Source of the DNA: Nitrospira sp.
GTDB lineage: Bacteria; Nitrospirota; Nitrospiria; Nitrospirales; Nitrospiraceae
Reading direction: 5' to 3'
Assembly: GCA_005239475.1 (NCBI GenBank)
Contig: SPAX01000021.1
Span: 8,019 to 60,131 of the forward strand
Length of the DNA stretch: 52,113 nt
The notes beneath the pieces are model-generated. The model was not told where the DNA came from and made no database searches. It saw nothing but the letters and a program-made list of their open reading frames with translations. Shown here piece after piece: positions 3,079 through 51,996 of the stretch. The stretch's first letter is position 1; the number at the start of each line of letters is the position of its first letter. Made by a program: the position numbers and the translations under genes.

Positions 3079-3163
3079 GGATTCCTCCTCCGTTGAGAGA
3101 TCATCAGGAAAAACAGGGCACCATAGCAGGGCATTTTTGAGCAAGTCAACGACCAGCCAAGCC

Positions 3164-3295
3164 GTGAGGCGTCAGGCGTGAGGCGTGAAACGTGACACGT
3201 AAGACGGGAGACAAAAGAAGAAACAATCCGTTCTCTCTCCATACCCCTCACGCCTTACCCCTCACGCCTAACGCTTTACGCCTTACGTCTGTTTC
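3164..3295. repeat. Inverted repeat with 7-bp periodic arms
   Basis: Left arm 3164-3212: GTGAGGC GTCAGGC GTGAGGC GTGAAAC GTGACAC GTAAGAC GGGAGAC; right arm 3247-3295: CTCACGC CTTACCC CTCACGC CTAACGC TTTACGC CTTACGT CTGTTTC. Confidence 0.9.
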
Positions 3296-6827: not shown

Positions 6828-6957
6828 CCTCCCTGAAATAATGACTGACCCCGTTGTAAAACAATTCTTCCCTGCCGCCTAGCAGGCTACGAAAAAAATT
6901 AGTTTGTACACCATACACGCTGGAATCTTACAGCATAGTCTCACTGTCAACATAGCC

Positions 6958-7083
6958 CTCAGGATGCTCAAAAAGGCCGTCCAGCAAGGCCGCAGCGAGC
7001 GAAGAGGCGAGGCGTACGCTTCGGTACGTTGAGCCTCTGAGCGATGCGAGAACGCCGCTGGCGGTCTTTTTCAGCATCCTGAG
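6958..7083. repeat. Dispersed palindromic element, family 1, near-complete copy
   Basis: Ends CTCAGGATGCTCAAAAAGGCCGTC (6958-6981) and GGCGGTCTTTTTCAGCATCCTGAG (7060-7083) are inverted, 21/24 identical; 3 nt separate it from the rnc stop. Confidence 0.9.
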
Positions 7084-7086
7084 AAA

Positions 7087-7794
7087 TCAGGTCCCTACCT
7101 GTCGAAGAGCCTGCTTCGCCGCCTGTTGCTCTGCTTCCTTTTTGCTTCGCCCGGACCCCATGCCCACGACCTCGCCTTGAATGGACAGTTCCACCTCGAA
7201 TAACTTCTGGTGGTCGGGCCCTGTTTCTCGAACGGTCGCATAGCGTGGCAATGCGTCATGCCGCTTTTGACACCACTCCTGAAACTGGGTCTTGTAGTCG
7301 CCCGCTCCAGGCTGCTCCTCTTGCGCGGCAATATGCGTGAGTTCCTCTGAGAAAATGTGGCAGGTCACCGTGCGGCTTGCCTCGAATCCTCCGTCAAGAT
7401 GAACCGCCGCAAGCACCGCCTCCAGCGCATCGGCCAACAACGAGTCTTTCTCACGTCCCTTCGAACGATCCTCCCCGCGCCCGAGCTTGAGATGTTCCCC
7501 CAGTCCGAGCCGGCGGGCTACCTGCGCCAACGATGCTTCACTCACCAACTGTGCTTTCAGCTTCGAGAGAGTCCCTTCTGAAGACTGCGGCAACGCAGAG
7601 GCCAGATATTCACTCATCACAAGCGACAACACGGCATCGCCGAGAAATTCGAGCCGCTCATTATGTTGAGGCGAAGCCGTTTTCTGTTCGTTGACGAGAG
7701 AGGAGTGCGTCAAGGCTTCCTCGAGCAAGGCAAGCGCCTTGAATCGATAGCCCAACGAGGATTGGAGCGAGTCGGCAGAAGAAGCTGAAGTCAT
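7087..7794 (-). CDS. rnc: Ribonuclease III
   Basis: LTHSSLVNEQ…NERLEFLGDAVLSLVMSEYL and C-terminal dsRBD; ORF opens at 7806. Confidence 0.95.
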   Translation of the reverse strand: MTSASSADSLQSSLGYRFKALALLEEALTHSSLVNEQKTASPQHNERLEFLGDAVLSLVMSEYLASALPQSSEGTLSKLKAQLVSEASLAQVARRLGLGEHLKLGRGEDRSKGREKDSLLADALEAVLAAVHLDGGFEASRTVTCHIFSEELTHIAAQEEQPGAGDYKTQFQEWCQKRHDALPRYATVRETGPDHQKLFEVELSIQGEVVGMGSGRSKKEAEQQAAKQALRQVGT

Positions 7795-7844
7795 AGTGAC
7801 GAGCACATCCCTCGCACAGGCCTCTTAGGCGCCGGGATTTCTAA

Positions 7845-8017
7845 CAGGATGCTCAAACCGCCCGCCAGCCTGTCTTGTTCATTTGGTCTGTTCGGTCTAT
7901 CTGGTCTGTCTTGTTTAATTGGTTTGTTTGGTTTGTCTTGTTTATATGGTTGAACCAGACTATCCGGATAAACCAGATGAACTAGATAAACAAAACAAAC
8001 CAGATAGACCGGGCTTG
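7845..8017. repeat. Family-1 end followed by inverted repeat with 9-bp periodic arms
   Basis: CAGGATGCTCAAACCGCCCGCCAGC at 7845; seventeen consecutive 9-mers at 7865-8017, switching from YTKGTYTRT type to CCAGATAAA type. Confidence 0.9.
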
Positions 8018-8055
8018 TCACAGGCGTGCGACCAGTGAAGTTCTGGCCTACCCAT

Positions 8056-9312
8056 CTAGTTGTTCCGCAGCCGGCTGAAGAGCAGGCAGGCATTGACCCC
8101 GCCGAATCCAAAAGAATTCGATAGCGCCACCGTCACCGTAACCGGTCTGGCCCTGTGCGGAATATAGTCCAGATCGCAGGCAGGATCCGGATGATCCAGG
8201 TTGATCGTCGGAGGAAGTATCCCGTGGTGAAGCGCCAGAACACAAAACACCGCTTCAATCCCACCGGCTGCCCCGAGTAAGTGGCCGGTCATCGACTTGG
8301 TCGAACTCACCGGGATGCGGTAGGCCCGCTCGCCGAACACCTGCTTGATGGCCTTGGTCTCAATCGCATCCGCCATCGTCGACGTACCATGCGCGTTAAT
8401 ATACCCGACCTCGTCCTTGCTGATACCGGCATCCTTGAGCGCCAGCTCCATGCACCGAACTGCGCCTTCTCCCTCTTCAGACGGGGCAGTAATATGGTAG
8501 GCGTCGCTGTTCATGCCGTAGCCGATCAATTCGGCATAGATCCGAACGCCACGCCGTCGCGCATGCTCCAGTTCCTCCAAGACCACGACTCCGGCGCCTT
8601 CGCCGAGCACGAACCCATCGCGATCCTTGTCGAACGGCCGACTCGCTTTCGTCGGATCATCGTTGCGAAACGACAAGGCTTTCGACGCTGCAAACCCTGC
8701 AACCCCCAACGGCGTAATGGCGGCTTCCGCCCCACCCGCGATCATGACATCGGCATCGCCGGCCTGAATCAGCCGATACGCGTCACCGATACAGTGATTG
8801 CCCGTCGCACAAGCCGTCACCGCACAGGAGTTTGGTCCCTTGGCGCCCAATCTGATTGCCACCTGCCCGGAAGCCAGGTTGATAATGGTCATCGGAATGA
8901 AAAACGGTGAGACGCGCCCGGGGCCTTTTTCCTGCAGAATCTTGTGGTAGTGTTCGATCGACCCAAGCCCCCCGATGCCCGATCCGATATATACACCGAC
9001 TTTCGTGGCCTCTTCCGGCGCCACGGTGAACCCCGCATCATCCACCGCCAGCTGGGCAGCGCCCACGGCATAATGGATGAACGTATCCATCTTTTTAATT
9101 TCTTTTTTCTCGATGAACTGGGCTGGATCGAAGTCTTTCACTTCACCGGCGATTTGGGCATCGTACGCCGCAGGATCGAATTTCGTGATTCGACCGATGC
9201 CGGATTCACCGGCACAAATGGCCTTCCAGGTCTTTTCGACACCCGTCCCCAGAGGCGTAATCAGCCCCAGACCGGTCACCACAATCCGCCTGGTCGAACG
9301 AGGACTCATCAC
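8056..9312 (-). CDS. fabF: Beta-ketoacyl-ACP synthase II
   Basis: [17 protein letters not shown]…[19 protein letters not shown]…[14 protein letters not shown]…[15 protein letters not shown]. Confidence 0.97.
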
Positions 9313-9324
9313 GTCCTACAACCG

Positions 9325-9582
9325 CTAGGCCTTTTCCTTAATGTAGTCCAGTGCTTTCCCAACCGTCAGAATCTTCTCTGCGTCTTCGTCGGGAATCTCA
9401 ATGCCGAATTCTTCTTCGAGGGCCATCACCAGCTCAACCGTATCGAGCGAGTCGGCGCCGAGGTCTTCCACGAAACTGGCTTCGGGCGTGACCTCATCCT
9501 CTTCGACTCCGAGCTGCTCACCGATAATTTTTTTTACCCGTTCATCCACAGTACCCATTGATTTCCCTGCCTCCTTCCCCAT
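9325..9582 (-). CDS. acpP: Acyl carrier protein
   Basis: [34 protein letters not shown]; possible starts 9582 or 9558, both with SD-like sequence. Confidence 0.96.
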
Positions 9583-51844: not shown

Positions 51845-51868
51845 GCGTTGAACGTTGCAGAATCAATC

Positions 51869-51994
51869 CAGGATGCTCAAACAGGTCATCCAACAAGGCC
51901 GCAGGGAGAATCGAACGGCGAGACGTGCGGCCGTATGCACGTTGAGGTGTTCGATCGACTGAGAACGCAGTTGGGGACCTGTTTCAGCATCCTG
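51869..51994. repeat. Dispersed palindromic element, family 1, near-complete copy
   Basis: Ends CAGGATGCTCAAACAGGTC and GACCTGTTTCAGCATCCTG (inverted; expressed as GGGGACCTGTTTCAGCATCCTG on plus strand); interior CAACAAGGCCGCAGGGAG matches CAGCAAGGCCGCAGCGAG near 6990. Confidence 0.9.
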
Positions 51995-51996
51995 TT

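Follow-up and report, generated by a model that had tools for sequence, protein, structure and literature searches.

An inverted array of 9-bp repeats between fabF and rnc of a Nitrospira genome is best explained as the interior of a MITE-like insertion

We analyzed a 52,113-nucleotide stretch of Nitrospira sp. DNA (hereafter the window), in which the spacer between fabF and rnc holds an inverted array of 9-bp units. This array is best explained as the interior of a MITE-like insertion that carries an inverted minisatellite as cargo, because end-to-end copies of the element have both ends in common, TA adjoins most of these ends, and relatives with a readable fabF–rnc spacer lack the element. 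As an overall account it is probable that a TA-inserting element of this kind entered the last codons of fabF, and that the ends of such elements erode, leaving a core that endures and changes in place. A first, sequence-only reading of the locus had correctly recognized a periodic inverted array, but it had not foreseen that the array forms the insides of an insertion bounded by terminal inverted repeats (TIRs). The features of the locus are collected in Table 1.

Table 1. Features at the fabF–rnc junction, in window coordinates
Feature	Position	Strand	Basis
Element with TIRs, array inside	7844–8075 (232 bp)	.	TIR pair, full-length relatives in own genome, absence from relatives with readable spacer
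Left end: TIR ACAGGATGCTCAAA and subterminal CCGCCAGC (consensus GCAGGATGCTGAAAAAGTCCGCCAGC)	7844–7869	+	recurs at ends of other arrays
Left arm, GT-rich, degenerate YTKGTYTRT 9-mers	7870–7951	+	profile HMM, TRF, shuffles
Apex GGTTGAACCAGACTATCC (family consensus GGTTGAACSARACTAACC), centre 7952	7948–7965	.	recurs in oriented arrays
Right arm, AC-rich, reverse-complement 9-mers	7953–8010	-	profile HMM
Right end: subterminal CAAGCCC...GCCAGAACTTCACTGG...AACTAG and TIR GCCGGCTGCGGAACAA (as read on - strand)	8011–8075	-	recurs in full-length copies
fabF (3-oxoacyl-ACP synthase); its final codons and stop lie within element	8056–9312	-	ORF list, translation
Relic of original fabF tail, TAGAAATCCCGGCGCCTAA on - strand, severed by insertion	7825–7843	-	alignment with insertion-free relatives
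rnc (ribonuclease III), ATG start at 7794; lies downstream of element	7087–7794	-	ORF list

The parse of positions 7865–8017 (153 bp) into seventeen 9-bp units is exact, as initially described. A shuffled-sequence null, proposed at the time as a control, did not match the periodicity. Lag-9 identity is 0.62 in the left and 0.61 in the right half, compared with 0.35 and 0.29 in dinucleotide shuffles, respectively, and none of 5000 shuffles reached the observed values. Likewise, 1000 shuffles did not reach the observed identity at any period between 5 and 19. TRF run on the window detected 9- and 18-bp periods in the array. The units change strand sense mid-array, one half carrying them in the reverse-complement sense of the other. 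The palindrome is scored at 8.6, above the maximum of 2.2 among 60 shuffles of the two halves. Pairing is imperfect, with 45 of 65 positions matching around the best palindromic centre. According to a profile model, the array itself spans 7870–8010 (83 + 58 bp) and changes sense at the apex; the outermost units, ccagcctgt and ccgggcttg, are part of the flanking element ends, which recur at other loci. The centre is no simple strand switch: it is a recurrent apex that is found genome-wide in either orientation.

The ~16-bp TIRs of the 232-bp element have the form GCAGGMTGCKGAAAAA. Relatives with a readable spacer, compared at the fabF–rnc locus, lack the element; their spacer measures ~30 bp, and the fabF tail runs uninterrupted to a ...CLLFRKPEA*-like C-terminus (residues read off the alignment). 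By translation, the C-terminal residues of the window fabF are now encoded by element sequence, and the right end of the element provides the final codons together with the stop codon. We took the gene name fabF from the sequence-only reading and from the conserved order beside rnc; rnc itself was present in each of the 32 genomes searched within the genus. In one relative, G004, this spacer is occupied by another element whose TIRs are of the same kind.

Searching the own genome with the 232-bp unit yielded the end-to-end copies C281 (86% identity), C261 (80%) and C112 (72%) as well as many partial ones. The ends of these and of further near-complete copies coincide with the ends of the window element. 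By manual count, 8 of 13 copies with a readable left end and about 10 of 12 with a readable right end have TA next to that end. A target-site duplication would place TA on both flanks; the window copy has TA on its left flank (7842–7843) and TG, i.e., CA on the - strand, in place of the expected TA on the fabF side (8076–8077). The window contains more TIR-pair elements with GCAGG-type ends at 229–422, 6882–7082 and 51868–51995, none of which encloses a 9-mer array. Ends are common to TIR families that differ in their interiors, which suggests that a single enzyme may mobilize them.

The element would thus be described as a short non-autonomous DNA transposon that inserts at TA and is presumably transposed in trans, and of which one copy probably entered the last fabF codons in the lineage of this species and so came to supply the stop codon. 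An IS630/DDE_3 parent is unsupported, since the DDE_3 genes of the own draft genome are without these TIRs (a matching pair flanks 0 of 7). We hence use the term MITE-like rather than MITE with a known parent. That the arrays are REP/REPIN elements moved by a RAYT (Y1) transposase is very improbable. Such elements are likewise extragenic, palindromic and present in hundreds of copies, but Y1 genes do not track array abundance across 32 genomes, and no Y1 transposase was detected in the array-rich G004, G013, G016 and G037 (the last three of which are incomplete). Moreover, the arms consist of 40–80 bp of tandem units rather than a short conserved stem, and TIR ends with TA flanks are seen instead.

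The inverted 9-mer array is dispersed in its own genome, which answers the question raised by the sequence-only reading of whether similar arrays exist elsewhere. Two consecutive units gave 736 matches with at most one mismatch. From these we estimate 150 or more intergenic arrays, a rough figure, as all two-unit matches fell in arrays in the sampled contigs but the sample had been chosen for matches. An unbiased 400-kb stretch of the sister genome G005 contains 63 arrays, 61 of them intergenic, which extrapolates to ~570 per genome; the control scan of 200 kb of Markov sequence returned 0. The unit consensus YTGGTYTRT is common to all loci and species although single loci turn over. In every two-armed array the GT-rich arm lies 5' of the apex (36/36 in the own genome), and no array in G005 was AC-rich first and then GT-rich alone. 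A TIR occurs within 90 bp of 17 of the 36 own-genome arrays; most arrays have no recognizable TIR nearby, above all those of G005 (55/63).

Within the genus, abundance is patchy, i.e., some species are rich in arrays and G001, G012 and G043 have nearly none. Outside it, the other genera of the family have arrays sporadically, and the remainder of the phylum has almost none. We consider it hardly credible that the array is chance low-complexity sequence or a locally grown microsatellite. Its units are degenerate and slippage does grow tandem repeats, but shuffles never reached the periodicity, unit and apex recur at well over a hundred loci, and full-length copies of the whole element exist. 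Arrays are unusually dense at about 200000–240000 of G005:C16 (L101–L102), where many are of the C-rich CTGGTCTAT type; elsewhere the TTTGGTTTG type prevails. At L116 4345 and L102 near 9970, arrays extend into the next gene, and their last unit (ACCAGATG) seems to give its ATG start.

To follow arrays between species, we compared G005 with four other genomes. Orthologous spacers contain an array in 20 of 28 cases where the G005 spacer has one, compared with 5 of 45 where it has none (Fisher P = 3e-7, from comparisons that are not fully independent). At the sequence level, likeness between orthologous arrays hardly exceeds that between random arrays (0.431 vs 0.379, sd 0.13), and orthologous arrays vary in length, in unit type and, in 16 of 50 comparisons, in apex orientation. 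Copy-number slippage, proposed in the sequence-only reading, is plausible insofar as orthologous lengths differ. However, these length differences show no clustering at multiples of 9, and simple unit slippage therefore fails to account for them; this rules against length change solely in 9-bp steps. Nor could a clean in-place inversion be demonstrated at L116:701, as same-strand and inverted alignments scored equally (31.5 vs 31.0). TIR-bearing, i.e., young, arrays tended to be more alike than those without TIRs, but not significantly so (P 0.11 and 0.27).

Of the few array-less TIR elements open to comparison most were not retained (retained in 2 of 13 comparisons, which overlap). Because array positions are retained while their sequence diverges, and because array-less TIR elements are mostly lost, these data hint that something keeps or regenerates arrays in place. 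This difference in retention counts against the MITE-like reading, as do the want of a TIR-matched transposase among the seven DDE_3 genes, the excess of TIR-less arrays, the absence of significantly greater likeness among TIR-bearing arrays and the mutated TA on the fabF side. With a MITE-like origin, the outer ends would usually have eroded genome-wide and the core persisted, possibly by template switching or slippage within the self-similar inverted repeats, and it would have been remodelled in place by gain and loss of units and turnover of the apex.

Alternatively, the array could be a cis-acting RNA element, i.e., a REP-like 3' hairpin, an RNase III processing site or a terminator, with folding selected downstream of stop codons. 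We regard this as unlikely, even though the array folds strongly as RNA (z -7.8 on the + and -6.7 on the - strand), positions are retained between species and arrays start near stop codons. In 37 of 64 tandem cases the array begins at most 15 bp from the upstream stop codon, compared with 21.8 expected under uniform placement, and between convergent gene pairs the median gaps to the arrays are 5.5 and 8 bp. TIR-bearing copies sit at TAG or TAA, i.e., at the TA target, and the closeness to stop codons is in part due to TA/CTAG insertion happening there.

The arms show no covariation. In apex-oriented arrays, 56% of positions formed Watson-Crick pairs within the same array and 56% did so with arms swapped between arrays, so that selection for a hairpin at the locus was not borne out. 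Unoriented matching in G000 had given a worse match for own arms (z -3.6). Since one arm differs from the other in sequence and the element is found either way round, this value is misleading, and it is superseded by the apex-oriented comparison. Sliding the arms by 9 pairs them equally well or better (0.59–0.62 vs 0.56–0.60), in line with the many pairing registers predicted at the outset. Apex orientation showed no preference relative to flanking-gene transcription (21:22), and RNA from the transcribed strand was no more stable than that from the other strand.

Divergent spacers hold arrays at a similar rate (24%) to tandem (21%) and convergent ones (28%) in the G005 stretch, for which genes were called by a custom script. 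We found no terminator-like sites, i.e., GC-rich hairpins followed by a T run, in 7000–9400, so that the locus is indeed unlike a classic REP or terminator. Both results disfavour a terminator function. The only Rfam match, mir-3910, scored 34.5 bits, far under the gathering cut-off of 95, and we read it as a palindrome artefact. Since the arms do not covary, orientation is random and a terminator is missing, selection of an RNA hairpin as a general rule is not supported. The long hairpin in fabF–rnc RNA may rather be a by-product of the insertion, and possibly an RNase III substrate, than a selected trait.

A TRF scan revealed that an inverted arrangement is almost universal among adjacent arrays of similar units, both for the 9-mers and for several 7-mers (AGTTCTG, CGTGAGG, GAATGGT, GGCTGAA and others). 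The window itself holds a second inverted short-tandem array at 3163–3288, with unrelated 7-bp units (CGTGAGG ... CCTCACG) and a spacer of ~40 bp. Arm order is GT-first at 49 of 49 9-mer loci and biased 33:5 for the 7-mers, and in 86 of 92 cases G exceeds C in the left arm; these counts include loci shared by L111 and the window or by orthologous contigs, and thus not all are independent.

Each 9-mer might be the site of a sequence-specific DNA- or RNA-binding protein, with the array as a platform for nucleoid organisation, for insulation or, whichever way transcription runs, for loading of Rho on the C-rich distal arm. The single consensus across loci and species despite turnover of individual loci, the positional retention and the finding that the C-rich, G-poor arm is distal whichever way the array is transcribed would all agree with such a platform. 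Yet because unrelated 7-mer families share the layout, one binding specificity is insufficient to account for it, and some genomes of the same genus have few or no arrays; we judge the proposal rather improbable.

Tentatively, and with less confidence than for the MITE-like origin at fabF–rnc, extragenic inverted short-tandem arrays might be viewed as a class in Nitrospira-like bacteria whose units include at least one 9-mer alongside several unrelated 7-mers, with a G-rich arm 5', an apex and a C-rich arm 3' on both strands. Layout and position would be long preserved while sequence turns over, i.e., selection or continual regeneration would act on architecture rather than sequence; one conceivable route is template switching of the snap-back type, which G/T-rich nascent strands alone could initiate.

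The design is a real, dispersed and unusual repeat with precedents in MITEs that carry minisatellites and in REP-like extragenic repeats. STRR of cyanobacteria are short heptamer direct-repeat arrays. TAACTGA heptamer repeats are intergenic in Beggiatoaceae, Cyanobacteria and Bacteroidetes, where 169 direct-repeat sets and one indirect repeat are reported (PMC4679880). Both heptamer systems resemble the present arrays in their short units, many intergenic arrays and patchy taxonomic spread, but they are direct repeats, whereas paired arrays here are nearly always inverted. Another near precedent is the BrickBuilt MITE of Porphyromonas gingivalis, a minisatellite within a MITE, with a 23-bp head-to-tail unit and 19 copies (PMC4596501). 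It shares with our element a leader and tail with inverted-repeat ends, intergenic location, multiple copies and a narrow host range; in contrast, the units here are 9 bp long and form two opposed arms round an apex, copies are estimated at 150 or more, and ends are often lost.

REP, BIME and REPIN elements are also extragenic, palindromic, of high copy number and close to gene 3' ends, but the arrays lack a short conserved REP stem and a RAYT correlation, and their arms are tandem arrays without covariation. With intrinsic terminators they share an inverted repeat in a spacer, but have no U-tract or terminator-like site and are equally common in divergent spacers. A REP survey counts palindromes of Nitrospira moscoviensis, in passages that do not describe inverted short-tandem arrays (PMC12306157); we found no description of them in the open-access literature either.

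With probably a hundred to several hundred arrays of the same design per genome, kept in position and rewritten in sequence, these bacteria offer a natural test of how palindromes and minisatellites originate and are maintained. Any model of how such repeats arise or function has to account for the consistent order of the arms among unrelated units. Arrays also alter gene ends directly, here by a new fabF C-terminus, and the fabF–rnc junction has gained a long potential double-stranded RNA immediately upstream of the RNase III gene.

Two further observations were made. A ~195-bp repeat at L116 10654–10850 is unrelated to the 9-mer arrays and occurs in all 10 genomes compared in many copies, most of which are about 88–95% identical. 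Finally, L255 (G000:C149:3127–3828) is an AmoA/PmoA-family gene of the own genome (PF02461, E 6e-92), which fits comammox Nitrospira, a group that the sequence seems to resemble.
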